A DNA stretch of 33,781 nt from contig CP070798.1 in assembly GCA_020343515.1 (NCBI GenBank), forward strand, positions 270,085-303,865, in the 5' to 3' direction. The position numbers and the translations under genes were made by a program. Source of the stretch: Thermoplasmatales archaeon. Its GTDB lineage: Archaea > Thermoplasmatota > E2 > DHVEG-1. Positions 146 through 13,765 of the stretch are shown here, in pieces; positions within the stretch are counted from its first letter, which is position 1; each line of letters starts with the position of its first letter. The notes under the pieces were generated by a model that worked only from the letters and a program-made list of their open reading frames with translations, was not told the DNA's origin and did not search any database.

Positions 146-2503
146 CTATAGTCTAATTAGATTTCTGAGTATTGGAAATACACGTGGATGATTTTCTAAA
201 AACCTTAAAAAAAATGAGTTGCTTGATGAATAGTACTTCGGCATGGTTATTTCCAATGTCGCCCAGTCGCTTTCAGCTCCATAAACATCTTTTGCCTTAG
301 CCTTTATGAGATAATTTCCACGTTTTGTCCATGTGTGCGTCTCTGAGTAAGGTGTGCCAGAAGTTTGAAAAGTCGTCCAATTTGTTAAATCTCCATCGCC
401 CCATTTAATGTAATATGATACATTATCTCCATCTGGATCTGTAGCATAGAAATAATAGTCATATTTCTCTCCTACTTTTCCATCTGTAGAACCATTGATA
501 TATGACATATAGGGTGGATCGTTTTCCACATTATCTACAATTATTTTTTCTAGAGTGCTAAAATCTCCCCAATCATGTTCAGAGTTATAACCTTTTACTA
601 GATAGTAATATGTACCATCAGATTTACCTGTTATATCGTAGTAATTGTTTGTGATTGTATCTGAAAGTGTAATAATTGAATCCCAATAAACAACAGGTAA
701 AATGTCATCTACATAAAATCCTTCTTCTAGTGTTAAATCATCTGTTGTATATCTAAATCTTAAATAAATTGACTCGCCTGAGTAGTTATCCAATGAGTAT
801 TGTTTTTGCTCCCATCCTCCAGAAGAACCAGTAAATGAGTCTAGCACTTCATAACTTCGGCCATCAACACTTACCTCCACAAAAGCCATATCATAATTAT
901 ATTCTATATCATACCAGCACCAAAAGTCAAATTCCAAACCTGTTGTAACAGGTATGGGATCAACAGTAGTCATTGAATGCACTTGATTGTTACCAGGACC
1001 GGATTTATAACTGTTACTAGATGAATGATATCTCTCAGTTGAAAGTGAGAATCCATCAAGTGACCAATATCCTGAACCAGACTCTGCATCATCGATATCA
1101 ATATTAGGTCCAATTAATTCATCGAGTTGAAATTTAGTAGGATCTGCATCCGGATTTTTTTCCTCCCAAGAGACAGTATAATCACCATCGGGATCTATTG
1201 GGACTTCATCAATAACCGGTGGCATCACACGAGGAATAACAGTATCACTTATGTTTTCAGCTTCTTTTAATAGTTCAAGGGCTCCATCGAAGTTTTCAGC
1301 TACAATTTGGTCTAGATAGCTTGCGGGCGGATGGTAATAATTGCATGCTTCAATTGTATATGCAAAAGTTGGCCTACCTTGTACATAATGTGCGTATCCA
1401 TAGGCCCAATCATCGGTATCTCCTGTTGTTGGATAAAGTTCTGCTCCTTGCTGTGCTATATATGTTCCGGACCCAGATTGTTTTGTTATTTTTGATGCAA
1501 TTTGTTGACCAATTTGAGTTATATAGGGATCATCTGGAGGATCATCATATGAATAACCCCAGGGAATTAAGACGAGCTCCCCATAGGTATGCCAAGAAAT
1601 ACTTGCACAAATATCATTTTCTAGAAAAATATCACGAATTGCTTGGGTTTCAACTTCTGAAAATGGCATAGGGCCACAATATACTTCAGAGCTAGGGTTG
1701 TTGCTAATTGAACCGAATCCAACTGATCCCCAAGCTCCCCAAGGATCACCATCAGAGGATCCAGCATAGTTCCTATTTAAATCTACACCTATTCCACCAG
1801 GTATAGGTCGTCTGTTTTTTCGCCAGTCGTTTCCGAGATCATGACAATAATAATAGCCATCAGGATTTAAGCAGGTTACGAGCCATATTCTTCTATTGTC
1901 TACTAAGTCTTTAATCTTAGTATCAAACCCATATTCTGAAGTTAATTGATCGGCAATATATAGGCATATTTCAACAGTTGGCCACTCTCTTGCATGATGA
2001 AGCCCCATAAGAAATACACCCAGCTCTCCCTCATTTACTCCCGGATTATCAGTAATTTCTAAACACCAAATATCTCGATTTTCATAGGTTGTTCCTATAC
2101 TGTAAAGACTCGTTATATCAGGATAGCTATCTGCTATATTCTCCAAGATATCTTCTATTTCTGCAAGGGTGTGATATTCACCTCTAACTCCTTGTAAATA
2201 TTTTTCTACATCCCAGATAAGAACTGAATAATCAACATCTGAAAGGCTTATCAGTTTATAACGAGGAAGAATAACATCAATCCATTTACCTGGTTTACTG
2301 CCGACAACCTTTGTACCTCTGGGAAGTGCAGTATAACCCTCTTCTGCATTAATTCTTACCAAAACCTTGGTCAATAATAGATTATCAATGTATTTTTTTG
2401 TTGATATAGATGATTGTTCCATTCTCCCGGATCCTGATAAAGAGATAGTAATAAACAACGCAAAAATAAAAATGCAAATTAGTTTACTCTTCATATTTAT
2501 CAT
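146..2503 (-). CDS. Secreted M14 zinc carboxypeptidase with beta-sandwich, PKD domain and C-terminal tail motif
   Basis: Exported metallocarboxypeptidase predicted to remove C-terminal amino acids from extracellular peptides. The 785-residue product starts with a signal peptide (about 1-25) and a propeptide-like region to about 105. The M14 domain spans about 110-415. Zinc ligands are H170 and E173 (HARE) and H305 (SWHTYGE). R228 in NDWRKNRR, N243-R244 in DLNRN and catalytic E385 in YTIEA match the carboxypeptidase A pattern, so it should be active. About 465-605 resembles a MAM/jelly-roll sandwich; about 660-756 is a PKD domain. The last 29 residues end PRVFPILRNLIRL, a tail shared with two other proteins here. 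The start could be codon 1 or codon 4 (both ATG); no strong ribosome site is seen. A TATA-like element lies near 2531-2546 on the minus strand. Family call is firm; the role of the tail is inferred. Confidence 0.93.
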   Translation of the reverse strand: MINMKSKLICIFIFALFITISLSGSGRMEQSSISTKKYIDNLLLTKVLVRINAEEGYTALPRGTKVVGSKPGKWIDVILPRYKLISLSDVDYSVLIWDVEKYLQGVRGEYHTLAEIEDILENIADSYPDITSLYSIGTTYENRDIWCLEITDNPGVNEGELGVFLMGLHHAREWPTVEICLYIADQLTSEYGFDTKIKDLVDNRRIWLVTCLNPDGYYYCHDLGNDWRKNRRPIPGGIGVDLNRNYAGSSDGDPWGAWGSVGFGSISNNPSSEVYCGPMPFSEVETQAIRDIFLENDICASISWHTYGELVLIPWGYSYDDPPDDPYITQIGQQIASKITKQSGSGTYIAQQGAELYPTTGDTDDWAYGYAHYVQGRPTFAYTIEACNYYHPPASYLDQIVAENFDGALELLKEAENISDTVIPRVMPPVIDEVPIDPDGDYTVSWEEKNPDADPTKFQLDELIGPNIDIDDAESGSGYWSLDGFSLSTERYHSSSNSYKSGPGNNQVHSMTTVDPIPVTTGLEFDFWCWYDIEYNYDMAFVEVSVDGRSYEVLDSFTGSSGGWEQKQYSLDNYSGESIYLRFRYTTDDLTLEEGFYVDDILPVVYWDSIITLSDTITNNYYDITGKSDGTYYYLVKGYNSEHDWGDFSTLEKIIVDNVENDPPYMSYINGSTDGKVGEKYDYYFYATDPDGDNVSYYIKWGDGDLTNWTTFQTSGTPYSETHTWTKRGNYLIKAKAKDVYGAESDWATLEITMPKYYSSSNSFFLRFLENHPRVFPILRNLIRL

Positions 2504-2564
2504 CTTATAAGCATATTTGTAATATTATGTTTATATATATTTTGTCTTTATCGAGTTCTCCAAT

Positions 2565-4484
2565 CTAAGAATAGCCTCCAATCTGTAAGCTTGGATCGCC
2601 CAGAAGTGCAAATTCTTGAATGGTTTTACAATCCAATAATGTTGCTGATTGTTCAGGATCTCCCCAGGTTGTATTCCAATCTATTGGGAATTGATTAAGA
2701 TAATCATTTAAGGTTTGTGTATGTGCCTTGCCTAGTTTAGTGAAATTGTTTATACCGTAGTTTTTGAAAAAGTTTGTGTTGGCAAATCCTGAAAAATATT
2801 GTACACAATCTGGGATACTATCATTGTCGTAATCACCTTCTGCAAACCAATCAAGCCCTGTGTATCCCATAATGGCAATAGCTCCACCTCCTATCTTACG
2901 GACAAGGCGCCAAGCCCAGCATTCGGGGACCCACTCTCTTTTCCAGTAATCTCCAATTGGTGGTGTTGTACTGAAATAGCCTAGAAGACCTTGTTTCAAA
3001 ATTCCCTCAATAAGGTTAAACATGGTTACATTAAACTGAGCATTGTGGCAACCACCAACTACAGATACTGGGAGTTTTATACGGTTCATTAACTTAGGCA
3101 TATCTTTTAATGAAAGACCGGTAATCCATGTTTCATTATCCGGTGGATGCGTTGACCATGTAGAGGGATTGCCATGACCATCGAAAAAGAGAAAACCACA
3201 ACCATCGCTAATTGCATCGACTACATCATCAACACCCGTAAGATTCCCAGTTGAAGTCCACAGCTTTATACCTTTAAAGCCTGGCATGTATTCTAACGCT
3301 TTTTTATTTTCTTCCTCTCCTTCGTAGTATGTATATCCTGGTGCAGAGTCGCCACCAACAACCACCATATTTTTAAACCATTCTTTTTCATATGCCGTGT
3401 TCTCATACTTGATAATTTTATCAACCATTATCTTGACTTCAAGGTTGTTTCTGCACGGTAATCGACCAACATAGACATCAGGGCACATATCTATAATATC
3501 TTTTCCTTCACTGTTCCATTCTGCGAATATTTCATTGCCGTTGGTATCCCATGATGAAAAATTACCGTATTTGTCATAAATATCTGCATAGTAGAGATCG
3601 CTAATATAACTTGATTCAAAATTGGAATTGTCGTCTAAATGGGAGTACCTTACAGGTATATGCCATTTAGGCCACTGACCCCTCATACCACCCACAAGTA
3701 AGACATAATCGACGCCATCTGTTTCAATCGCATATTTGATGTAATACTTTATTTTCTCAGGTTGATCAAAGCCTTCGTATTCATTATAAATACCTTCAAC
3801 TGTCTTAAGAAAAGTAGTAACATTATGCTCCATTTTGTGGTTAATAAGTGGCTGTAAATTCTTCGAAAACACTTCTGGAGCTATAATTACCATATCATAG
3901 TTATTACCAAAAGTTGTTGGATTACTAGATAGCTCATAGGATATTTTGATATGTACTTCGTTATGGTATAATATCTTACTCTCTACAGGAATGTATTGAA
4001 CAGGACAACATTGAACAGTAAGTAAGATAACATGTTCATCTCTATATAGACCAGAGCCAATATTATAGAAATATTGTTTTTCAGGATAAACTCCCTCATA
4101 TGAATTAATGTCAACTTGGCTAGCATGTATCTTTTTTCCAGTTACAAGAGTGACTGGGCTCGGTGCAGATACAATATTTTTTTCTAAAGAGTATTCTTCT
4201 GGTTCTGAAAATGTAACATCGACATCTTTAATGCGGGTTCCAAATGGAAAGTTGTATGTTTTAACATAGGCAGGTAATAAGGGAAGACCTGGATTTTTAA
4301 GCCATGAATTTGCATTTTCAATGTTTACAATAGAAAATCGAGTGTGTTCATTAATCATAGGTTTAGAAAAAGTAATTGTTTCCGTTTTTTCTATTAGATT
4401 AAGATTATCTTTGGGTATAGCCACTACTGCAAGTCCATTAAGGCCCAAAATAGCTATAATTATTAAAGTTATTATTTTTTTCAT
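2565..4484 (-). CDS. Secreted C25 (gingipain-like) cysteine peptidase, no PKD or tail motif
   Basis: Exported cysteine endopeptidase of the gingipain family. The 639-residue product has a signal peptide (about 1-22), an N-terminal prodomain-like region containing PGLPLLPAYVK (about 25-185), and a C25 domain from about 195 to the end. The catalytic His is probably H437 in FFDGHGNP and the nucleophile C479 in VVGGCHNAQF, spaced as in gingipains (His, about 33-42 residues, Cys). It stops shortly after the ALLGDPSLQ motif that closes the C25 domain, so unlike its paralogue at 5692 it has neither PKD repeats nor the FPILR-type tail and may be released rather than retained. A GGGGG ribosome site lies at 4494-4498, 9 bases upstream of the ATG. 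It lies 61 bases upstream of the M14 gene on the same strand, and the two may act on the same substrates. Confidence 0.9.
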   Translation of the reverse strand: MKKIITLIIIAILGLNGLAVVAIPKDNLNLIEKTETITFSKPMINEHTRFSIVNIENANSWLKNPGLPLLPAYVKTYNFPFGTRIKDVDVTFSEPEEYSLEKNIVSAPSPVTLVTGKKIHASQVDINSYEGVYPEKQYFYNIGSGLYRDEHVILLTVQCCPVQYIPVESKILYHNEVHIKISYELSSNPTTFGNNYDMVIIAPEVFSKNLQPLINHKMEHNVTTFLKTVEGIYNEYEGFDQPEKIKYYIKYAIETDGVDYVLLVGGMRGQWPKWHIPVRYSHLDDNSNFESSYISDLYYADIYDKYGNFSSWDTNGNEIFAEWNSEGKDIIDMCPDVYVGRLPCRNNLEVKIMVDKIIKYENTAYEKEWFKNMVVVGGDSAPGYTYYEGEEENKKALEYMPGFKGIKLWTSTGNLTGVDDVVDAISDGCGFLFFDGHGNPSTWSTHPPDNETWITGLSLKDMPKLMNRIKLPVSVVGGCHNAQFNVTMFNLIEGILKQGLLGYFSTTPPIGDYWKREWVPECWAWRLVRKIGGGAIAIMGYTGLDWFAEGDYDNDSIPDCVQYFSGFANTNFFKNYGINNFTKLGKAHTQTLNDYLNQFPIDWNTTWGDPEQSATLLDCKTIQEFALLGDPSLQIGGYS

Positions 4485-4611
4485 GTATTTAATCCCCCAA
4501 TTATAATTTTATAAGATGGTTATGGATAGCTATTAGCTATTAATATTTGCTGTTTGGTACCTCCAATAAAGAATATTGCCGAAAGACACGTGTCTCATCC
4601 TTAGGAGCATA

Positions 4612-5469
4612 TTAGTGTGGTATGTTAGTGGATTTCAGCTCTCCATGAACATCACCGTTTGTTAAATCGATATCGAGCTTGATTAGGTTTCCAATAGATG
4701 GGGCATAATAGTATTCAAAGTAATCACTAATTATTGTTGATATCTTCCATGCATCAAAGGTCCCTGCTTCAACAGTAATACTTTGTTTATTCCAGCACCA
4801 AAACGCAAATGGTATCCCTGAATAATGAGTTTGAAATGTTATAGGAATCTTGATAAGGCCAAAGATTCCGCCGAATTGTGCGTTCATCTCTACATTTATA
4901 TCTGGTAATGCCCAAGATTTCAGTGCATGTAAAGGAAAATCAAAGAGAGGAAAAACAGTACTCAAATCCCCATCTACAGTCAATTTAAACGGAATTGGAA
5001 GTGGTATAGGGATTGGTGAAATCGTTGCTACAGTAATACCTATTATATTAGCGGAAACATCTTCGATTTCTAAACCAGATTTGGTAAAATAAATAGTTCC
5101 AGTTAAATGTGTTAACGACGGTTTAAAGTTGCCCATTACATTTAATGTTACAGGTGACGAAGTATAAATTTCATACTCTGCAGAGAGGTTACCGGTAAAA
5201 TCTACCCTATAGGTATCCCCGGTTGTGTCTTTTACCGTCCATTTTAAATCATCAATTCTTCCATCAATAAATATCTTTTTACCAGTTTTACTAATATTTA
5301 TAGTAAAATCATTTATTGTATACGTCCAACTGTCATCGATATTCCAAGTAGGAACATCATCATTAATAGTTATTTTCTCTCTTGGCATCGGTTGAGTGGG
5401 CTCAGCAACAGCTACAACACTCAGCATCATTATAATACAAAAAATTATCCCTGTAGTTTTACTTATCAT
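4612..5469 (-). CDS. Small exported protein of unknown function (possibly DUF3108-like)
   Basis: A 285-residue protein with a clear signal peptide (about 1-22, ending AVAEP), then a beta-rich, soluble mature part with no further membrane segment. The mature protein opens with PTWNIDDSWTYTI and near its end has VEAGTFDAWKIS followed by YYYAPSIGNLIKLD. The latter pattern resembles DUF3108-type proteins, in which a Gly-x-Phe-x-x-x-Lys-Ile strand precedes a Tyr/Trp-Tyr strand; this is a weak resemblance from memory, not a firm assignment. It has no catalytic motif, PKD domain or FPILR-type tail. The ribosome site is GGGGG at 5476-5480, six bases before the ATG. It is transcribed toward the two peptidase genes, with a 127-base gap to the next one. 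A role as a surface or periplasm-like binding protein is only a guess. Confidence 0.8.
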   Translation of the reverse strand: MISKTTGIIFCIIMMLSVVAVAEPTQPMPREKITINDDVPTWNIDDSWTYTINDFTINISKTGKKIFIDGRIDDLKWTVKDTTGDTYRVDFTGNLSAEYEIYTSSPVTLNVMGNFKPSLTHLTGTIYFTKSGLEIEDVSANIIGITVATISPIPIPLPIPFKLTVDGDLSTVFPLFDFPLHALKSWALPDINVEMNAQFGGIFGLIKIPITFQTHYSGIPFAFWCWNKQSITVEAGTFDAWKISTIISDYFEYYYAPSIGNLIKLDIDLTNGDVHGELKSTNIPH

Positions 5470-5636
5470 ATATTTCCCCCATGTTATATTAATTATAAAA
5501 ATGTATATTTAAATCTATCGAAAGTTTAATCTTGAGAGGTGTAATGAAAATAAGTTTCTAGTAATTTTTTAGAAAGATAATAGTATATTTTCGTAACAAA
5601 ACAAATACTCCCATTGATGTAATTATAGAAGAAACG

Positions 5637-5685
5637 TTTAAATAAAAATACTGCATTATAATATATAGCATTTATATTTGGGAGG
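5637..5685 (+). promoter_or_regulatory. Promoter and ribosome site of the large C25 peptidase gene
   Basis: TATA-like TTTAAATAAA at 5637-5646 should place the transcription start near 5668. GGGAGG at 5680-5685 is an excellent Shine-Dalgarno six bases before the ATG at 5692. The 222-base divergent spacer also serves the minus-strand gene starting at 5469. Confidence 0.5.
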
Positions 5686-5691
5686 AAAAAT

Positions 5692-8310
5692 ATGAACAAG
5701 AGAATAATGGGTATTTTTATCTGCACGCTTTTGATTGCTACCGCTGCTTTACCAGCGGCAGGGACCGGGAAAATTATTGAATTAAATAAAATAAATAACA
5801 TCTCTAGGAAATCGTTAATGGAGTCTATCGTTGTAACGCTGAATGTAGGGGAATATGAAATTAATGACTATGGCATGGGTAATTCTGAAATAAATATGGC
5901 TGGTTTTGGTTCCATTCTTTATCCGGGGGAGCCTATGCTTCCATCTAAAACATTTTATGTTGGAATGCCGCCTGGTTGTGAAGTGATTTCAGTCGATTTG
6001 CTAAACGAAAATTGTGAAGAGGTGGCTGGAAGATATCATATCAGATCGGCTCCACCAGTTTTTGGTGGTGAAAACACTAAAGTCAATGGGAAAGAAAATT
6101 TAGTTATATGCCCATCAGAAGGTCCGTTCCCAGCAAAGGTATATGAATACATTGGTATGAGCCAGATGAGAAAATATTATCTTGCAATGATACGTTTTTC
6201 ACCGTTTTCGTATTATCCATCTGAAGGAAAACTGGTGTTGCATAACAGTATTACTTTGCGTATAAGCTTTAGGATTGTTGAAGAAGTTTCTGACGAGTTG
6301 TTAGCAGATGCGGCGATGGATGATGTTGCTTCAGAGTGCATCGTAAACTATGCAGAAATTGCTCATTTATACCAGCCTACATCTGTTCCACCAATGGAAC
6401 AAACATATGACTATGTGATCATTACAACAAGTTCTCTGGTTGGCTCTCTATCTGGTTTTCAAACTTGGAAAACAAGTTTAGGTTATTCTGTGACCATTAA
6501 AACATTATCCTGGATTACGACACAATATCCAGCTAGCGATACACAGGAAAGTATCAGGAATTTTCTTGTTGCAAATTATGCATCCTGGGGGATTAAATAT
6601 GTTTTGATTGTTGGAAGTCATTCAACTGTTCCAATGAGAACGTGTTATCCTGACCCCAATGATCATAATAATGATGGTCAGCATGACATTCCAAATGATT
6701 ATTACTATGCTGATCTCACTGGTAACTGGGATAGTGATGGTGACGGATTTTATGGTGAACGAGGACAGGATAGCGTTGACTTTAATCCCGAGGTATGGGT
6801 AGGGAGAATACCAGTAGATACTGGAACAACGGTTACAAATATATGTACAAAGATTCAGAACTTTGAACAAACCGCTTATATGGGTTGGAAGAAAAACGCG
6901 ATGTTGCTCGGTGCAGTCTATAGTTACCTTAATGAAGACTATTCCGGCAATCCAAGATGGGATGGAGCTGAAGTTCAGGAGCAAGTAAGGACTAATCTCC
7001 TCGCGGGTTTTTCTTGTACAACAATGTATGAAAAAGCTGGACTTGCTCCATGTTCCTATACTTGTACATATTCATTGACCAATGCAAATATTATAACACA
7101 GTGGGGTAGCACCACTGGCTGGGGCATTGTGAACTGGGCAGCACATGGCTGGTATACCTCTGCTAGTAGAAAGATATGGTCCTCGGATGATAGTGACAAC
7201 GTCCCAGAAACAGCTGAAATGACATGGCCGATTATGATTCAAAACACGGATTCCACCTCCTTTAATGACAATAAACCTCCTATTGTCTTTGCAGCTAGTT
7301 GCTACGTTGAGCGTCCCGAGACATCGAATAACCTCGGTGCATCGCTATTGATACAAGGAGCATCTGCATTTGCTGGAGCTACACGAGTCTCATGGGGTAG
7401 CATGGGATGGACACAACCTTCTCATGGGGGACATGGTACTATAAGCTATGATTTCGTTGACAGGATTGCAAATGGCGGTCAAGATTGCGGTACGGCCTTG
7501 TACGATGCCAAGTTGTATGTTTATAATAATTATCCGTGGAACGGCTGGTGGGATTATGCCAACATGTATGATTTCAACCTATATGGAGATCCCTCCATGG
7601 GCATGAATCTCCAACCTAATACACCTTCTCAACCATCTGGACCTACCTCAGGTTTAGCTGGAAAGTCTTATACATATACAACCAGTACTACCGATCCTAC
7701 GAGCGACATGGTAAAATATGGTTGGGACTGGGATGGAGACAACACAGTTGATGAATGGGATGACAACGGTGGTAATTATTATACCTCTGGAACAACAATT
7801 TCCACAAGCCATGCATGGGGATCCACTGGTACGTTTAATGTTAAAGTAAAGGCCGAGGATTTGTATGGTGGACAAAGCGCTTTCTCGCCTCATTTGACAG
7901 TTGTTATCACCACTACTGCGCCAAACAAACCAGCCACACCCTCAGGAGAAACACGAGGTAAAATCGGAACACCGTACCCCTATTCCACAATGACAAATGA
8001 TCCTGATAGTGATAAGGTAAAGTATGGTTGGGATTGGGATGGAGATAACACAGTTGATGAATGGGATGACAACGGTGGAAATTTTTATGCCTCTGGAACA
8101 ACAATTACTACTTACCACTCATGGGATACCAAAGGTACGTATGATGTGAAGGTAAAGGCACAAGATCTTTACGGCGGTGAAAGCGTCTGGTCAGATCCAT
8201 TAGAAGTGACAATGCCGAAAAACAATCTATTCATCAACACGTGGTTCCCATGGTTTTGGCAATGGTTTCCAAGGATCTTTCCAATCATCAGAAATCTATT
8301 TGGACTATAA
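5692..8310 (+). CDS. Secreted C25 (gingipain-like) peptidase with two PKD domains and C-terminal tail motif
   Basis: Exported cysteine endopeptidase, 872 residues. Signal peptide about 1-23 (ending LPAAG); prodomain about 40-200 with the PGEPMLPSKTF segment typical of C25 propeptides; C25 domain about 235-635. Likely catalytic residues are H485 in NWAAHGWY and C537 in FAASCYVE; the domain closes with NLYGDPSMG. Two PKD domains follow (about 645-740 and 745-842), almost identical in their cores (YGWDWDGDNTVDEWDDNGGN) and separated by exactly 102 residues. The last 30 residues begin after EVTMPK and end FPRIFPIIRNLFGL, matching the tails of the M14 and beta-helix proteins. It is a paralogue of the 639-residue C25 protein on the other strand, with extra cell-surface modules. 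Extracellular protein breakdown is the expected role; retention at the surface through the tail is inferred. Confidence 0.93.
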   Translation: MNKRIMGIFICTLLIATAALPAAGTGKIIELNKINNISRKSLMESIVVTLNVGEYEINDYGMGNSEINMAGFGSILYPGEPMLPSKTFYVGMPPGCEVISVDLLNENCEEVAGRYHIRSAPPVFGGENTKVNGKENLVICPSEGPFPAKVYEYIGMSQMRKYYLAMIRFSPFSYYPSEGKLVLHNSITLRISFRIVEEVSDELLADAAMDDVASECIVNYAEIAHLYQPTSVPPMEQTYDYVIITTSSLVGSLSGFQTWKTSLGYSVTIKTLSWITTQYPASDTQESIRNFLVANYASWGIKYVLIVGSHSTVPMRTCYPDPNDHNNDGQHDIPNDYYYADLTGNWDSDGDGFYGERGQDSVDFNPEVWVGRIPVDTGTTVTNICTKIQNFEQTAYMGWKKNAMLLGAVYSYLNEDYSGNPRWDGAEVQEQVRTNLLAGFSCTTMYEKAGLAPCSYTCTYSLTNANIITQWGSTTGWGIVNWAAHGWYTSASRKIWSSDDSDNVPETAEMTWPIMIQNTDSTSFNDNKPPIVFAASCYVERPETSNNLGASLLIQGASAFAGATRVSWGSMGWTQPSHGGHGTISYDFVDRIANGGQDCGTALYDAKLYVYNNYPWNGWWDYANMYDFNLYGDPSMGMNLQPNTPSQPSGPTSGLAGKSYTYTTSTTDPTSDMVKYGWDWDGDNTVDEWDDNGGNYYTSGTTISTSHAWGSTGTFNVKVKAEDLYGGQSAFSPHLTVVITTTAPNKPATPSGETRGKIGTPYPYSTMTNDPDSDKVKYGWDWDGDNTVDEWDDNGGNFYASGTTITTYHSWDTKGTYDVKVKAQDLYGGESVWSDPLEVTMPKNNLFINTWFPWFWQWFPRIFPIIRNLFGL
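7721..8078 (+). repeat. Near-identical intragenic PKD duplication (306-base period)
   Basis: The 52-base segment at 7721-7772 recurs at 8027-8078 with two differences by eye (C/T in each case). The offset is 306 bases, exactly 102 codons, one PKD module. Flanking parts of the two modules are much more diverged, which suggests recent conversion or strong constraint on the calcium-binding-like loop DWDGDNTVDEWDDNGG. Confidence 0.85.
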
Positions 8311-8498
8311 GTGGAACAAAAACCTCTCTCCTTTATTCTTATTTTTCCATAGTATTTTGTGAGATTTTTCAATTCAAATATTTCTAAATTACAATTTGGA
8401 TCATTAAGGGACGAACTCGTTTATATGAAGGGGGTTTTTAGAAGATTTTCTGGATTACTATTTTTTGTAATTAAAAATATCATATATTATCCATAATG

Positions 8499-8530
8499 TT
8501 TATATCCAAGAAGTATGATAATATAATGAA
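8499..8530 (+). promoter_or_regulatory. TATA-like element of a probably leaderless gene
   Basis: TTTATATCC at 8499-8507 is centred about 28 bases before the ATG at 8531, so transcription would begin at or next to the start codon. No Shine-Dalgarno is visible. The preceding 188 bases after the C25 gene contain only pyrimidine-rich sequence and no supported gene. Confidence 0.4.
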
Positions 8531-9019
8531 ATGGTAAGCAGGAAAAAGCAACTGGATAAACAAAGAACAGAATGGAGAAGAAAACATAGGACACTCAATG
8601 GAAAAATTATTATTTACCCTGAGAAGTCTCCTGAGCACATTAATGCCAGAGCTACTAAATTGTATAACTGGTTTTGGAAAAAAATACTTCTAGAAATAGG
8701 GTTGCAGGAAATTCCGGCAATAATTTCTGGCATTAAAAATCAGATTAAAACTGAACAGGATACAAAAAAGATCCAAGTGTATCGAACAATGATTGGGATG
8801 GCGGAAGATGCCTATTCGCTCAAGAGATTAGAAGATATTAAAGATTACGACATGGAATTAGAATTAGGAAAGGATCCAGTATATGATTCTGGAGAGGGAA
8901 TTATCTATAAAGATGGGCAAATATTCACAACTGATTATAATGAAGACGAAGGTAAAATTCTTCTACGCGACATTGAAGGGATAATTGTAAATATGCTATT
9001 TTCGGAAGAGAAAAAATAA
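8531..9019 (+). CDS. Unrecognised 162-residue cytoplasmic protein
   Basis: I do not recognise this protein. It has no signal peptide or membrane segment. The first 20 residues are very basic (MVSRKKQLDKQRTEWRRKHR). A mostly helical stretch (about 35-105) contains LYNWFWKKILLEIGLQEIP, and the C-terminal third is acidic (YDMELELGKDPVYDSGEG, then TDYNEDEGKILLRDIEG). The basic head could bind nucleic acid, but no motif shows this. Transcription is probably leaderless. It stands alone between the C25 peptidase and the convergent CBS gene. It is most likely real because the 162 codons are uninterrupted and the composition is protein-like. Confidence 0.7.
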   Translation: MVSRKKQLDKQRTEWRRKHRTLNGKIIIYPEKSPEHINARATKLYNWFWKKILLEIGLQEIPAIISGIKNQIKTEQDTKKIQVYRTMIGMAEDAYSLKRLEDIKDYDMELELGKDPVYDSGEGIIYKDGQIFTTDYNEDEGKILLRDIEGIIVNMLFSEEKK

Positions 9020-9124
9020 AAAGATGTGTTGATAAATAATATTTATAAAAAAAGGAATTATATGGAAAAGAACGGATTCGCTTTGGATAATATAAGGGGA
9101 TTTTAAAAATAGTATTTTGTTTTA

Positions 9125-9559
9125 CTATTGAGAGTTCTGTTTTTCAACCTGTTTGGAATTTTCAATTTCCTCAGCAAGAAGTCTCGAGAAAGCTGGTAAA
9201 GCATTTGCAATATCCGTAATGGTGATAATTCCAAATATATTATTGTTCAAAATAACAGGAAGTTTCTTGATTTTATGGTCCCTCATAATCTCTACTGCTT
9301 TTTCTACACTTGTTGAAGCGTGTACTGTTTGTACATTCTTGGACATGATCTCTTCCACTTTTGTTTCTTTGGGATCTCGGTGATCAACTATGACTCTTTC
9401 AATTATGTCTCTTTCAGTGAGGATTCCTATCACAAATCCCTCTTTCATAACAACTAGCGAGCCAACGCCACGATCTCTGTATATTTTACACGCATCAAAC
9501 ACAGTTTTGTCATTTTCTACGGTGACTACTTCTTTTGACATAATTTCGCTGACAAGCAT
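9125..9559 (-). CDS. Two-CBS-domain protein
   Basis: A 144-residue protein made of a tandem CBS pair (Bateman module): CBS1 about 1-60 (MLVSEIMSKEVVTVEN ... GILTERDIIERV) and CBS2 about 68-128 (VEEIMSKNVQTVHAS ... GIITITDIANAL), then a polar tail. Such stand-alone pairs bind adenine nucleotides or S-adenosyl compounds and regulate partner proteins; the partner cannot be told from the sequence. I chose the ATG at 9559 because GGTG lies a few bases upstream (9563-9566) and the residue run aligns with the usual CBS N terminus; a TTG start at 9586 would add nine residues. It is a single gene on the minus strand, convergent with the 162-residue gene. Confidence 0.9.
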   Translation of the reverse strand: MLVSEIMSKEVVTVENDKTVFDACKIYRDRGVGSLVVMKEGFVIGILTERDIIERVIVDHRDPKETKVEEIMSKNVQTVHASTSVEKAVEIMRDHKIKKLPVILNNNIFGIITITDIANALPAFSRLLAEEIENSKQVEKQNSQ

Positions 9560-9690
9560 AATTTCACCACACTTTTCTTGAAACAAATTATTGCTTAATA
9601 ATACCTTCTATTATTACATTAAAATGTATGTTTTATTAGGATAGGTTTAATTGATACAAATCCAATGCTATAGGGTGGGATTGTTCTTAA

Positions 9691-9710
9691 TTTTATACAA
9701 TTGTATAAAA
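9691..9710. promoter_or_regulatory. Perfect 20-base palindrome with back-to-back TATA-like halves
   Basis: TTTTATACAATTGTATAAAA is self-complementary over all 20 bases. Each half contains a TATA-like element, so it could be a divergent promoter core or a dimeric repressor site. It lies 132 bases upstream of the CBS gene start and about 100 bases from the nested stem structure. Confidence 0.4.
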
Positions 9711-9813
9711 CTATAAGGGAATAAATGTAATGATAGCTTTTCAAAGTACACGTTAGTAAAAAACTAAACATAACAAATGTTACCAAAAGTTTATTAACTA
9801 TAACTGCATATTA

Positions 9814-9870
9814 TTATAATAATGGGGGCCTAATGTAAAGGAAACTATTTTTAAGCAAACTATTTTGCAT
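9814..9870 (-). CDS. Possible 18-residue small ORF or leader peptide
   Basis: The minus strand carries AGGAGGAAAGG immediately before an ATG at 9870-9868, followed by 18 codons (MQNSLLKNSFLYIRPPLL) and TAA at 9816-9814. The ribosome site is as strong as any in the window, and a TATA-like TTATAAAATAAATAG lies upstream near 9945-9959. The frame lies largely within a nested stem structure. No gene follows on this strand before the CBS gene 254 bases on. It may be a small protein, a leader peptide or chance. Confidence 0.25.
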   Translation of the reverse strand: MQNSLLKNSFLYIRPPLL

Positions 9871-9899
9871 CCTTTCCTCCTCTCCTCACCTGGGCCCCC
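9824..9899. ncRNA. Candidate structured RNA: three nested stems
   Basis: GGGGGCC (9824-9830) pairs with GGCCCCC (9893-9899), AAAGGA (9837-9842) with TCCTTT (9870-9875), and GCAAA (9855-9859) with TTTGC (9864-9868) around a four-base loop. The stems nest without conflict over 76 bases in a region otherwise nearly all A/T. A polypurine/polypyrimidine run (9871-9891) stays unpaired; on the minus strand it reads like tandem Shine-Dalgarno motifs, on the plus strand like the anti-Shine-Dalgarno. Strand is undecided. Confidence 0.35.
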
Positions 9900-10025
9900 T
9901 CACCAATTACATCTCAGAATAATGGTTTGTACATATTTTATTCTATTTATTTTATAATAATTTCCTCAAAATCTAATGGTCTTTTACCTGGGCTAAAACT
10001 ATTGAAAAAATATAATATGGTTCAG

Positions 10026-10087
10026 ATGGGGAATGGAGGGAAGGTGATAATAATGAGTAATTCAAAAAATTAAAATTCATTCCCCAT
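10026..10087 (+). ncRNA. Candidate hairpin RNA with internal Shine-Dalgarno and six-codon frame
   Basis: ATGGGGAATG (10026-10035) pairs perfectly with CATTCCCCAT (10078-10087). The 42-base loop carries GGAGGGAAGGTGAT followed by ATG at 10053 and a six-codon frame ending at 10073 (MSNSKN). A TATA-like run (ATATAATATG) lies at about 10010-10019. The outer stem and the AAGGTGA in the loop resemble the element at 33641-33715. Confidence 0.3.
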
Positions 10088-10194
10088 TCCAATTACCATA
10101 TGTACAAGTAAATGGATAAAAATTTATTATATAAAACTTTCTATATAATTTTTGATTTGTATTATCCTTAAATTACTTTCTTCTCAACCAACAA

Positions 10195-10656
10195 TTAAAA
10201 CTGGAATTCTTTATTAAAAATTTTAAAAAGAATAAATTCTCTAACCGCATCCATGTCTGAATCTAGATAAATGGCTCCAATCAAAGCTTCTAATGAATTA
10301 GCAAGGTTCGTGCGGTTTTTTGCCCCATCTTGTTTGATCTCGCCTTTTCCAAGTAGTAGGAAGTTGCCAATACCCAATTTCCTAGCGATGTTAGCTAAAA
10401 AATTATTATTTACCCCAATTGATCGCCTACGGGTAAGTTCACCTTCTGAAAAATATTTATTACTCTTATAAAGTTGCTCGGCTACAATAAAATTTAGGAT
10501 GCTGTCACCCAAAAATTCTAAACGTTCGTTGTATTCAAGAGGAATGTCGGCTTCAAAAGCATATGTTTTGTGGGTTAGAGCCTCTTCTAGCAACCCCTTA
10601 TCTTTAAATTTGTAACCTACTTTTTCCTCAAGCACATTGAAATTATCTTTTTTCAT
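10195..10656 (-). CDS. rnc: Ribonuclease III, catalytic domain only
   Basis: Double-strand-specific endoribonuclease. From the ATG at 10656 the product is 153 residues, about the length of the catalytic domain alone (bacterial enzymes are about 220-250), with no double-stranded-RNA-binding domain. The signature ERLEFLGDS is at 44-52, giving E44, E47 and D51 of the metal site; E123 in LANSLEALIGA matches the essential Glu of E. coli E117. The position of E. coli D114 is Asn (N120). The ATG start leaves eight residues before the LEEKVGYKF helix, as in the E. coli enzyme; a TTG at 10674 would add six residues. It lies 39 bases downstream of the radical SAM gene, so probably co-transcribed. RNase III is uncommon in archaea. 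Possible roles are rRNA processing or antisense-RNA turnover. Confidence 0.9.
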   Translation of the reverse strand: MKKDNFNVLEEKVGYKFKDKGLLEEALTHKTYAFEADIPLEYNERLEFLGDSILNFIVAEQLYKSNKYFSEGELTRRRSIGVNNNFLANIARKLGIGNFLLLGKGEIKQDGAKNRTNLANSLEALIGAIYLDSDMDAVREFILFKIFNKEFQF

Positions 10657-10695
10657 AAGAAAATAGGAATACAATAACCCTAAATTAATGTATCA

Positions 10696-12408
10696 CTAAA
10701 AATTGATATAGTCCAATAATTTTCTACCGATTTCAGGGTCATCAAGCGATTTAATTATTTGCTCTTTGTTCCGAAAAGGCCTGTTTGATAAGATTCTAGT
10801 GGCCCTTTTTTTACCAATACCCGGAAGTGCTACAAGGGTTTCCCTAGGTGCTGTGTTTATATCTAAAGGAAAGGGTATTGCTGTTACAGATCTATAGCCG
10901 TAATCTATCATTTTTACATCAAAAAATCTATGTAAAGTAAAAACACCAGGAATGCCTACCAGCAAGGGATAGCTACCGATTTGCCTACCAAAAGTTAATT
11001 TACCTTTATGGATTTCTGTAAAAACATTTTTAAGAATAGTTCCTAGTGGCAAAATTTTTTTGAGCATGGGTCGCTCTATATTCTCACGGACCTTTCTTTT
11101 AAAGCGTTGAAACTCGGTTTTATGTCTCTTAACATTTTTAATGCCAAACTTGAACATCATTGTACCAGGAATTGGTATAACCTGACGGAGATTGATTCTT
11201 CTCACAAGAAGGCCGCTATCATATATCTGCATTAAAAAATCGTAATTTAATGCAAAGGTGTTTTTTGTTTCACCTTTGAGTCCACAAACAAAATTCAAAC
11301 CTGGCAATAATTCTGGTAAACCATTGGCTCCTCTCTTTGAACCAACGTTATTCAAAAGCTTTATTGCAGATAGAACTTCATCAGGGGATGCCTTGAGATT
11401 GTTATGATTAATAACTGCAGGGTCGACACTTTCCACTCCAAAAGCTGCAACATCGCCAGGAGTGTGATACTTAATAATACTTTTTGCAATACGCTTGCAT
11501 TCCTTAGGATATCGAGCAATGATTCCAGGATTTGCATTGTCGATATGCAAGGTTTTTAAACCGGGAGCCTTGGAACGGATTCCTTTAAACAACTTCTCAA
11601 TCGCAGCAGGATTTGGCTTCGGAAATTCTTGCTCATCTGCACCTTTTGCCATATACGAAAAAATACATGGTTGATTTCCAACTCGAAAATTTCGAATTCC
11701 TGCAGTGTAAAGCATACCAACTTCATCAAGAATATCTTCAACAGCTCGAAAACTAGGGATGCCTTTACTCGGTTCGCTGCAAAAAGAGCAGCCACCAACT
11801 ATGCTCCTTGGGCAGCCTCGATATGTTTCCATCTCTGCAATTAAATAATCAGGAAAAAAAGGATGTTGCCGGACTATCTGTGAACCCTGTACGGCGAAAT
11901 TTTTAATATCTCCAGGACTGGTTCTACACAGAAACGAGTTCGTTATCTCAGTATCACAGTTATTGCTTAATAGCTCTGATATAACGATTTCTCCATCGCC
12001 TTCTGCTATCATATCAAAAACGTCTTCAACAACTTGGGTATCTCTCGCCTTCTTGCCACCGGACAGACCAAAACCGTATCGTGCACCTGGGCCACTTAAG
12101 ACCTTGATAGGATTGTTTATGATGCCTAGAAGAGATACAAGCTCATTGGGACTTACTGGAAAACCAGAAAAATATTTTCCAGGGACAGACAAACCAGCAA
12201 TTACGATAAGTAAATCAGATTTAGACAGAATCTTCAGGAGAGACCTGTCGCTACGAATTTGATCTATGGTGCAATAAAAAACATGGGCATGTTTATCGTA
12301 AGACCAGACAGCGCCAGCTATATAACGAGGATACGGGCTGATATAAGGTGGAACACCAAGGCAAGTAGGCTCATCAATGTAACCATCGAGTATTGAAACA
12401 TTTAACAT
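10696..12408 (-). CDS. COG1031-type radical SAM protein with C-terminal helix-hairpin-helix
   Basis: A 570-residue iron-sulfur enzyme expected to cleave S-adenosylmethionine; substrate unknown. The N-terminal part (about 1-185) resembles a B12-binding-like or Rossmann region without an obvious cobalamin motif. The cluster cysteines are C199, C207 and C210 in ETYRGCPRSIVGGCSFCSE, a C-x7-C-x2-C spacing rather than the usual C-x3-C-x2-C, as I recall for the archaeal COG1031 family. Residues about 510-560 hold a helix-hairpin-helix (INTAPRETLVALPGIGKKRA), normally a DNA or RNA backbone-binding element. A TATA-like element at 12433-12442 is centred about 30 bases before the ATG, suggesting leaderless transcription. 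The following gene is RNase III, hinting at a nucleic-acid substrate such as tRNA or rRNA; that is inference. Confidence 0.9.
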   Translation of the reverse strand: MLNVSILDGYIDEPTCLGVPPYISPYPRYIAGAVWSYDKHAHVFYCTIDQIRSDRSLLKILSKSDLLIVIAGLSVPGKYFSGFPVSPNELVSLLGIINNPIKVLSGPGARYGFGLSGGKKARDTQVVEDVFDMIAEGDGEIVISELLSNNCDTEITNSFLCRTSPGDIKNFAVQGSQIVRQHPFFPDYLIAEMETYRGCPRSIVGGCSFCSEPSKGIPSFRAVEDILDEVGMLYTAGIRNFRVGNQPCIFSYMAKGADEQEFPKPNPAAIEKLFKGIRSKAPGLKTLHIDNANPGIIARYPKECKRIAKSIIKYHTPGDVAAFGVESVDPAVINHNNLKASPDEVLSAIKLLNNVGSKRGANGLPELLPGLNFVCGLKGETKNTFALNYDFLMQIYDSGLLVRRINLRQVIPIPGTMMFKFGIKNVKRHKTEFQRFKRKVRENIERPMLKKILPLGTILKNVFTEIHKGKLTFGRQIGSYPLLVGIPGVFTLHRFFDVKMIDYGYRSVTAIPFPLDINTAPRETLVALPGIGKKRATRILSNRPFRNKEQIIKSLDDPEIGRKLLDYINF

Positions 12409-12481
12409 TCTTTTGATTACAACATATCCTGTATTATAAAAAGTTATTGTGATATATATTTTGGTATTTCCTGGGCAGTAA

Positions 12482-13765
12482 CTATTCTAGTCCCAGCATC
12501 TGTCTCAAGATCGGAAACATCCAAGGATACCGTTCAAACAACCAACTAAGTAGGTTAAAATTGAAATTGATGGCTTTGTTTTTTGGCATCGTAACTTCTA
12601 GTGTTCCCCAGTCGCTTTCCCCATCTTTGTCCATGGCTTTTGCTTTAATGGTATAGGTTCCTTCCTCATACCACGTATGGTGTACATTGAATGGTATGCC
12701 TGATGCAATTGGCCCAAGCCAGTCAGTAAAATTACCATCACTCCAGTTTATTATTACCCATATAGCATCACCATCAAATTCTGTTACTGTAATTGTATAG
12801 GATAAGTTGACTCCAACTTTACCATGAGTTGGACCATTAATAACTGGTGCATTTGGTGGTTGATTTTCATATTCCCATGGCTCCATCAATGGATACTTGT
12901 CCTCATTATCACCACCAGGAATAGCATATGGCGTATCGCCAATGCCATCACCATCCCCATCTGTCCCATTATAATCACTCCAGTAGTTGCCACCAGAGGG
13001 ATATTCATCGTCCCATTTATTACTTGGACCTCCTCGTTCAAAGACTTGGTTTTCTCCATTATTAACAAAGTTATTATGATGAATTTTATTGAACTCTCCT
13101 CCACCCTCGCACATATCTAACATTATACCTACCTCATCGTTTGATATAACATTGTTTGAAACAATTTGATTATAAGCAGACATGATCATGTAAATTCCTC
13201 TGTTATTACCTGATATATTATTGTGAGTAATGATGTTCTTGTTATGATGATCCCAACCGGTATGTTCAAAATGGATACCATCATTTGTATTAGAGGTTAT
13301 ATTATTGTATCGAATGATGTTGTTTTCGCTATTTTCTTTACCATTGTATTGTGTTCGAAACATCACACCATTACGGTTCCCAGTGATAATAGTATCTTCT
13401 ATAACCCCATTTGATACATTGAGAAACACTACTCCATCATTGTTTATTCCACCATCATGAACGTAACAGTTAATAATTGTAAAGTACACACTTGCGTTCA
13501 AGATAGTTATGCCATCCTGGAAAGAGACATTTATCCTCCAGTTTTCTATAGTATAGGGATCATTGGATATGCCTGAACCTCCAGTTACGCCGTTTTCGCT
13601 GGTGAAATCATCATTTCCATTTATGTAAATCGGGTCATGTGGTGTATATGTGGGAGTGACATATGATTTTTCTACTGTGGTGCCAGTTGATGGAATAACA
13701 CTCATCCCAAGGAACAATACTATTATGACAATCGCAATTCCATTCTTAGGCAATGTTTTTCGCAT
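12482..13765 (-). CDS. Secreted NosD-like beta-helix protein with PKD domain and C-terminal tail motif
   Basis: Exported 427-residue protein. Signal peptide about 1-28; right-handed parallel beta-helix about 75-250 made of Asn-rich rungs (NNIIRYNNITSNTNDGI, NQIVSNNVISNDEVGI); a NosD-type block at 251-293 with YPSGGNYWSDY and a Ca-binding-like DGDGDGIGD; a PKD domain about 303-395; then a tail ending YPWMFPILRQMLGLE. The fold is typical of carbohydrate-binding or carbohydrate-cleaving proteins, but no catalytic site is evident. The tail matches the M14 and large C25 proteins, with one extra Glu at the end. GGGAGG at 13771-13776 precedes the ATG and a TATA-like element is at about 13805-13814 on the minus strand. 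It is transcribed divergently from the RAM/transporter operon. Confidence 0.92.
   Translation of the reverse strand: MRKTLPKNGIAIVIIVLFLGMSVIPSTGTTVEKSYVTPTYTPHDPIYINGNDDFTSENGVTGGSGISNDPYTIENWRINVSFQDGITILNASVYFTIINCYVHDGGINNDGVVFLNVSNGVIEDTIITGNRNGVMFRTQYNGKENSENNIIRYNNITSNTNDGIHFEHTGWDHHNKNIITHNNISGNNRGIYMIMSAYNQIVSNNVISNDEVGIMLDMCEGGGEFNKIHHNNFVNNGENQVFERGGPSNKWDDEYPSGGNYWSDYNGTDGDGDGIGDTPYAIPGGDNEDKYPLMEPWEYENQPPNAPVINGPTHGKVGVNLSYTITVTEFDGDAIWVIINWSDGNFTDWLGPIASGIPFNVHHTWYEEGTYTIKAKAMDKDGESDWGTLEVTMPKNKAINFNFNLLSWLFERYPWMFPILRQMLGLE

Follow-up and report, generated by a model that had tools for sequence, protein, structure and literature searches.

A recurrent C-terminal tail on exported proteins of an archaeal family as a candidate sorting or docking tag

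Introduction

Why should three exported proteins with unrelated main domains end in the same way? The question is raised by a stretch of 33,781 nucleotides from a Thermoplasmatales archaeon (assembly GCA_020343515.1, contig CP070798.1, positions 270,085 to 303,865; the whole stretch is called the window here), in which an M14 peptidase, a large C25 peptidase and a beta-helix protein carry similar C-terminal tails. A first-pass annotation, made from the letters alone, proposed that the tail is an undescribed sorting or anchoring signal served by a dedicated membrane partner. We followed the tail through the source genome (G000, a single contig of 1.92 Mb, 86.7% complete; the window is G000:C1:270085-303865) and through related genomes, for which our own genome (G) and locus (L) handles are given where needed. 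The tail is a real tag, present in most genomes of one family, and the observation is both confirmed and far larger than first noted; we read it, tentatively, as a C-terminal sorting or docking tag.

Results

The tail and its position

Each of the three tails was recovered where it had been placed, behind a PKD domain ending in (I/V)TMPK. The tagged proteins of the window, with their tags and PKD domains, are as follows.

146-2503, minus strand: M14 peptidase with MAM-like and PKD domains, 785 residues, apparently exported, with a signal-peptide-like hydrophobic N terminus; C-terminal end PRVFPILRNLIRL
149-238, minus strand: tag of the M14 carboxypeptidase-like protein, KYYSSSNSFFLRFLENHPRVFPILRNLIRL (profile match G000:C1:270233-270322)
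251-451, minus strand: PKD domain (PF00801) of the M14 protein, residues 685-751, directly before the tag
5692-8310, plus strand: exported large C25 (gingipain-like) peptidase with a propeptide and two PKD stretches, 872 residues; C-terminal end PRIFPIIRNLFGL
7642-7878, plus strand: PKD domain (Pfam) of the large C25 protein, residues 651-729; the second PKD stretch lies between this domain and the tag
8218-8307, plus strand: tag of the large C25 peptidase, KNNLFINTWFPWFWQWFPRIFPIIRNLFGL (matched by the three-tail profile)
12482-13765, minus strand: exported NosD-like beta-helix and PKD protein, 427 residues; C-terminal end PWMFPILRQMLGLE
12485-12583, minus strand: tag of the beta-helix protein, KNKAINFNFNLLSWLFERYPWMFPILRQMLGLE (matched by the three-tail profile; AlphaFold2 model)
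12611-12808, minus strand: PKD domain of the beta-helix protein, residues 320-385 (21.3 bits, slightly below the Pfam cut-off of 23.5)

A profile of the three tails, run against the source genome, gave 34 matches at E<=10, and since 29 of these, the window's three included, stand at E<1e-5, the likeness is not due to chance; an early search with a loose pattern was uninformative (38 matches, against 16 with the reversed pattern). A 26-column motif, built from 23 of the 30 source-genome loci after L019, L022, L023, L025, L027, L029 and L030 had been dropped as broken, masked or variant, matched the source genome 33 times at E<=1e-3. Its consensus is a gapless C-terminal module of about 26 residues, FNFNLLxWLFERFPNAFPILRYLLGL, within which, counting back from the C terminus, P-13 and F-10 do not vary and E-16, P-9 and L-1 hardly do. 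The tail had no NCBIfam match, either in the six window proteins or in five tail peptides, and a literature search found no description of it. Five of the dropped loci (L019, L023, L025, L027 and L029) hold a recognizable tag in frames of 28-40 codons with a broken frame upstream; these frames come from pseudogenes or assembly frameshifts.

The tail ends 0-2 residues before the stop codon in 29 of the 30 source-genome loci examined, and 14 residues before it in one variant. Among 150 distinct matches with a stop, pooled from three partly overlapping locus sets such that one gene may sit in two of them, 130 lie at 0-2 residues from the stop, 15 at 3-10 and five, one of them on a Mailhella sequence, at 11-30; one further match reached the edge of its locus before any stop. 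Thus 145 of the 150 fall within ten residues of the stop, as in C-terminal sorting signals, and the scattered internal matches that would have spoken against such a signal were not seen, none of the 150 lying more than 30 residues from the stop. Likewise, the stop follows exactly seven codons past ERFPNAFPI in 55 of 70 in-frame matches on GTDB contigs.

Distribution across genomes

The 26-column motif at E<=1e-3 was positive in 37 of 119 relatives; the window's family, with 45 genomes, accounts for 36 of them and the 74 other relatives for one. In a draw of 389 genomes across the phylum at E<=1e-4, it was positive in 35 of the family's 45 genomes and in none of the other 344. Copy number at E<=1e-3 is 33 in the source genome and reaches 66 in G003, these per-genome counts being lower bounds in some genomes. 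The FPILR-type tag is missing from ten family genomes (G013, G016, G021, G022, G024, G025, G026, G029, G034 and G038), referred to below as tag-less.

An exact scan of GTDB r220 contigs for ERFPNAFPI returned 66 stretches, 64 of them under archaeal titles that include Thermoplasmatales SG8-52-3, SM1-50, bin45, bin50, UBA33 and CSMAG; viral contigs gave no match to this exact pattern. On the Mailhella sequence the motif does not stand within such a tail. A small contig binned as Parcubacteria (L131, JAGLJD010000061.1) bears the same tail at its edge, and is probably misbinned MBG-D-type DNA. We call the window's family MBG-D-type (Marine Benthic Group D) because SG8-52-3, SM1-50 and SCGC AB-540-F20 are named as Thermoprofundales/MBG-D genomes in a published survey (PMC6461988).

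Cargo and export

Seventy-five tagged proteins matched 53 Pfam families, 25 of which are listed and supply the names used here: peptidases, beta-helix, beta-propeller, Ig-type, beta-lactamase and similar types. PKD domains dominate (PF00801 in 39 proteins and PF18911, PKD_4, in 36, the overlap between the two not being given), followed by PQQ_2 (9), NosD (8), C25 (5), FG-GAP_2 (2) and arylsulfotransferase (2), with M14, beta-lactamase, papain-type and other families occurring singly. The tail is not bound to PKD, as its first description implied, for at least 11 GTDB proteins have another all-beta domain, ending in xTP(R/K), before it.

A crude rule, which considers only hydrophobicity and its position and was applied with a choice of start that favored hydrophobic N termini, was passed by 17 of 19 open reading frames (ORFs) of the source genome and 63 of 71 from GTDB; the ORFs were picked by a loose expression, and some are untagged (for example L154, 353 residues; L115, 114; L151, 646; L153, 219; L017, 360). 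The clearly tagged ORFs lacking a hydrophobic N terminus, in L107 (286 residues), L133 (226 residues) and L127 (a 38-residue fragment), look 5'-truncated, and no intact cytoplasmic carrier was recognized among the 90 ORFs. Judged by sequence, the tagged cargo is diverse and apparently exported. Taken with the genome, phylum and position counts above, this largely bears out the expectation of the first-pass annotation that Thermoplasmatota would yield many matches, confined to the very ends of proteins with signal peptides.

Conservation and descent

When one tail per genome was aligned (n=30, two rows of which, L039 and L040, are mis-picked segments), P-9 was kept in 29, P-13 and F-10 in 28 each, L-7 in 27, R-6 in 25 and E-16 in 23. 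As polar as well as hydrophobic residues are fixed in this sample, recognition is favored over a generic greasy end.

Part of the likeness nonetheless reflects common descent. Across 67 tails from ten genomes, core identity was 0.636 within and 0.594 between genomes, a difference reached in five of 500 shuffles; these values are inflated because 42 of the 67 tails contain the ERFPNAFPI search pattern. With the nine positions of the pattern excluded, core identity falls to 0.556 within and 0.458 between genomes, compared with 0.372 and 0.193 for the linker, so that the core is, at the level of sequence, better kept than the linker; helix 1 alone gives 0.514 within versus 0.370 between genomes. 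The copies in the source genome agree at 64% of residues and at 53% of fourfold third bases, for which the expected identity of 0.34 is a crude average. Recent copying does not follow from these figures, because third-base identity among the genome's own copies (0.53) resembles that to two other genomes (0.48 and 0.55).

Predicted fold and variant tails

An AlphaFold2 model of the last 129 residues of the window's beta-helix protein, made from an alignment of 27 sequences (25 of 28 GTDB segments and two window segments), has a mean predicted local distance difference test score (pLDDT) of 88.8, and places the last PKD strand at residues 89-95, then a linker, a helix at 105-114 and a second at 116-126. 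Two helices are again predicted for a tail that follows the other all-beta domain, of xTP(R/K) type. The best match in the PDB, 4XED, comes from an M14-like peptidase of SCGC AB-540-F20 and consists of its PKD domain; the solved chain terminates at TLEVTMPK, and such a PKD domain has therefore been solved without a tail. The tail alone drew three weak PDB matches (best E 0.062). The suspicion that the tail is simply the final strand or helix of the PKD fold thus fails, 4XED ending at TMPK and the predicted helices following the last strand and linker. The tail is predicted to form a helix-Pro-helix outside the upstream domain.

Some tails keep helix 1 and usually RFP or QFP, and differ in the second helix (ERFPLLERLL type; for example FERFPMLERLLGILGWNIE in L030). 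They occur in L030, L062, L065, L068-L073, L079-L082 and L089, of which L082 and L089 come from two genomes of another family in the class. The FPILR form may accordingly be a family-specific elaboration of an older, looser tail.

Hydrophobicity and comparison with known C-terminal signals

The maximum 19-residue Kyte-Doolittle mean of 73 tails is 0.15-1.11, versus 2.41-2.61 in four PGF-CTERM tails. On the Wimley-White scales, the best 19-residue octanol sums average -5.7 (-16.3 to -1.0) in the tails versus -2.6 to -8.2 in the same four PGF-CTERM tails, and the 26-mers have a mean interfacial energy of -3.4 kcal/mol (-12.0 to +2.2). The tail had been described as lacking a transmembrane helix; this holds on the Kyte-Doolittle scale, and agrees with the charged and proline residues in mid-tail, but not on the octanol scale, where the tails are as favorable as PGF-CTERM. 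The two tail helices have mean helical moments of 0.56 and 0.44, and the net charge of the last 26 residues is 0 to +2 in 64 of 73 tails. The tails end in LLGL, LLGY and similar sequences, with no basic cluster at the C terminus.

The tail is distinct from LPXTG, PEP-CTERM and PGF-CTERM, as first claimed: the tail sequences contain neither the PGF motif, and so lack the PGF-CTERM (TIGR04126) signature, nor the signature and basic end of LPXTG, PEP-CTERM, GlyGly-CTERM or MYXO-CTERM. The PGF-CTERM/archaeosortase A (ArtA) system resembles it in that archaea carry the signal at the C terminus of numerous exported proteins whose folds are unrelated, and the tag-bearing family itself encodes both the cognate ArtA and proteins of PGF-CTERM type; however, the tag has no PGF motif, basic end or Kyte-Doolittle transmembrane segment (the octanol scale not being decisive), and is limited to one family, whereas ArtA homologues are class-wide. 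GlyGly-CTERM/rhombosortase and MYXO-CTERM/myxosortase likewise tag sets of exported proteins, MYXO-CTERM being described as lineage-restricted with dozens per genome, and both signals as tripartite (signature, hydrophobic region and basic end). The tag, in contrast, lacks a signature and basic end, and rhomboid and CPBP proteases are also found in tag-less relatives.

The C-terminal domains of type IX secretion are Ig-like beta domains on exported proteins. Like them, the tag is a C-terminal module on exported proteins that include C25 peptidases; unlike them, it is predicted to be helix-Pro-helix, and C25 proteins do not track it. Models of type IX C-terminal domains had no match at E<=1 in the six window proteins, which gave just sub-cut-off PorU-type matches in the C25 region. 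One MBG-D C25 protein is annotated with a Por C-terminal sorting domain in a table of the survey (PMC6461988). Short terminal modules that bring unrelated enzymes to one place also include dockerins and encapsulin cargo peptides, which the tag resembles in being common to unrelated enzymes. No dockerin- or encapsulin-type family occurred among the matches of window proteins or tail peptides or among the 25 listed cargo families, and no tag-binding domain turned up, no search having been aimed at one.

The archaeosortase A route in the same genomes

The source genome encodes one archaeosortase A (G000:C1:996683-997618; TIGR04125 134.6 bits, cut-off 75), which Pfam PF09721 missed at E<=1e-3 and for which a profile of ten MBG-D homologues was used in the searches below. 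It opens an artA-pssD-pssA-like cluster (G000:C1 996683-998940; L207:3684-5941), being followed by archaetidylserine decarboxylase-like and then synthase-like genes. PssA and PssD reportedly have a role in the ArtA system of Haloferax. The arrangement recalls the ArtA/PssA/PssD system of that organism (PMC7157517).

One source-genome protein, ending ...NSTPGFEIILALIAVLIVLLMKKKKTF, scores 25.0 bits as PGF-CTERM, barely over the cut-off of 24.5. Because TIGR04126 discriminates poorly at E<=1 (it was positive in 11 of 14 control genomes; 16 of 79 relatives and two controls exceeded the cut-off), PGF-CTERM was judged by sequence: ends of this type, mostly TPGFE with a hydrophobic stretch and basic end, were found in 29 of 30 loci examined (L208-L237, including L221, G000:C1:898506-898568), which derive from the tag-bearing family and from other families of the class. 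As the source genome has both archaeosortase A and a PGF-CTERM-type protein, a PGF-CTERM route exists beside the new tag. A short second exosortase/archaeosortase-like protein (177 residues in L182) occurs in the family genomes G006, G030, G032 and G043 (L178, L182, L184 and L188); the one copy tested matched the general NCBIfam signature and passed no specific subfamily cut-off.

Search for a partner

A dedicated membrane enzyme or receptor had been expected to co-occur with the tag. All five candidate families profiled are also present in tag-less relatives, and for this reason we name no partner. Archaeosortase A was rejected as the dedicated enzyme, with a homologue in 100 of 119 relatives, 29 of 35 tag-bearing genomes and nine of the ten tag-less family genomes; the six tag-bearing genomes in which it was not found include incomplete assemblies. 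C25 proteins, the small one at 2565-4484 included, were considered as PorU-like processing enzymes and found no support in that role, being present in 74 of 79 relatives, among them all 45 family genomes. CPBP proteases (44 of 50 genomes; seven of eight tag-less family genomes) and rhomboid proteases (47 of 50; eight of eight) fared no better, both in a set of 50 genomes that takes in 30 of the 45 of the family. The DUF3108-like family was an attractive candidate, as DUF3108 is LolA-like and, judged by eye, the family seems to adjoin tagged genes in four of 65 GTDB loci; it is present in 27 of 35 tag-bearing and five of ten tag-less family genomes, and also outside the family (51 of 119 overall), and is thus associated with the tag weakly at most. 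Exported DUF3108-like proteins adjoin C25 peptidases in the window (4612-5469) and in G026, and matches to both families within common open frames of about 950-1000 codons suggest domain fusions.

Discussion

MBG-D archaea (Thermoprofundales) are reported to be some of the archaea most often met in sediments and to secrete extracellular peptidases (PMC6461988). A labelling study reports that no uptake by MBG-D of carbon from added protein was seen, and questions the purpose of the peptidases (PMC9123169). Whether such enzymes are lost to the surroundings or kept on the cell bears on what they are for. Within the 75 proteins examined, the tag is carried by the window's M14 peptidase, by five proteins of the C25 type and by many of the propeller and beta-helix types. 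It thus gives access to the surface proteins of a lineage that has not been cultured, supplies an easy rule for annotation and sets a target for receptor searches.

Of the readings considered, a C-terminal sorting or docking tag has the best support and ranks ahead of direct anchoring in the membrane; we put its probability at somewhat under one half (about 0.46). It accommodates the position at the stop codon, the reuse across domains behind signal-peptide-like N termini, the confinement to one family, the conserved residues and the predicted form, and the lack of a PGF motif or basic end. On this reading, cargo would be exported via its N-terminal signal peptide and, in folded form, present the linker and two short amphipathic helices hinged at the nearly invariant proline (LLxWLFERF-P-NAFPILRYLLGL). 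A conserved partner outside the cell might recognize the hairpin by E-16, P-13, F-10, P-9 and R-6 and by its hydrophobic face; such binding, presumably non-covalent, could hold a wide range of unrelated surface proteins and extracellular enzymes at the envelope, alongside the archaeosortase A/PGF-CTERM route encoded in most of the same genomes. Somewhat more tentatively, we propose that MBG-D archaea thereby have a second, sortase-independent system of surface display, in which a dedicated envelope receptor reads a helix-Pro-helix address tag that a single cell may bear on dozens of its hydrolases and surface proteins. To our knowledge, no non-tripartite C-terminal tag of this kind has been described in archaea; if the proposal is true, archaeal C-terminal tagging extends beyond tripartite signals of the archaeosortase type.

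Several observations weigh against a sorting or docking tag. No receptor or enzyme emerged from the five families profiled, and the tag is missing from ten family genomes, though all ten have C25 peptidases. The tail itself is modelled with modest pLDDT, with block means of 66-80 in the PKD model and 53-59 in the model with the other domain. Helix 1 too is more alike within genomes, and so part of the likeness is descent; and since FPMLERLLGIL-type tails keep helix 1 only, a role common to all tails would not strictly depend on the second half. Finally, the octanol sums, which resemble those of PGF-CTERM tails, together with the mean interfacial energy, make direct binding to the membrane without a receptor possible. 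The octanol result led us to raise the weight of such an anchor and, with the corrected identities, to lower that of the sorting tag.

A receptor-free, monotopic anchor, with amphipathic helices lying in or dipping into the membrane and residues conserved for folding or insertion rather than recognition, is the main rival, though the unlikelier account. The strongly aromatic, hydrophobic tails, with their helical moments, negative mean interfacial energy (-3.4 kcal/mol) and PGF-CTERM-like octanol sums (mean -5.7), would suit it, as would an in-plane hairpin, with which the predicted helix-Pro-helix is compatible; yet specific polar and proline residues hold fixed positions over about 28 genomes, seemingly beyond what a generic amphipathic anchor needs, Kyte-Doolittle values are far under those of PGF-CTERM tails, and interfacial energy spans -12.0 to +2.2. 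We regard cleavage and covalent transfer by a sortase-like enzyme, whether an unknown transpeptidase or archaeosortase A with the tail as an atypical substrate, as improbable: known sorting signals also stand at the extreme C terminus, and the source genome has an archaeosortase A beside archaetidylserine synthase- and decarboxylase-like genes, but the tails lack the PGF motif, basic end and Kyte-Doolittle transmembrane segment, the enzyme is present in nearly all tag-less family genomes, is not found in six tag-bearing ones and has ordinary PGF-CTERM proteins beside it, and relatives without the tag have C25, CPBP and rhomboid proteases as well. The tails of different proteins might instead bind one another, building multi-enzyme complexes with no receptor. 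Homotypic assembly of this sort would explain why none of the five families tracks the tag, and fits a single hairpin with a hydrophobic face common to many different enzymes per cell; we hold it to be more improbable still. Least probable of all is that the tail belongs to the PKD/Ig domain, or is a lineage-specific extension that serves stability, folding or turnover and not localization. Pfam detects PKD in at least 39 of the 75 tagged proteins, and the greater likeness of helix 1 and linker within genomes looks as if a domain-plus-tail cassette had been copied around; however, the 4XED domain folds and ends before the tail, and the same tail, with separate helices predicted, also stands behind another domain type; a part in turnover or folding may still apply.

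Untagged proteins and gene neighborhoods

Three further exported proteins of the window were confirmed to be free of the tail:

2565-4484, minus strand: small C25 peptidase (67 bits against the PorU model, whose cut-off of 420 is far higher)
4612-5469, minus strand: DUF3108-like protein (weak Pfam match, E 0.02)
16803-18602, plus strand: beta-helix protein, 599 residues

In the GTDB neighborhoods, beta-helix proteins seem to be the sole widely recurring non-tagged cluster (28 of 65 loci). A second C-terminal sequence, DWHPAxEPYDI, was seen on exported proteins adjoining tagged genes in L017, L096, L108, L125 and L138 (five matches in the loci); its carriers, beta-helix proteins where readable, are probably one protein family.

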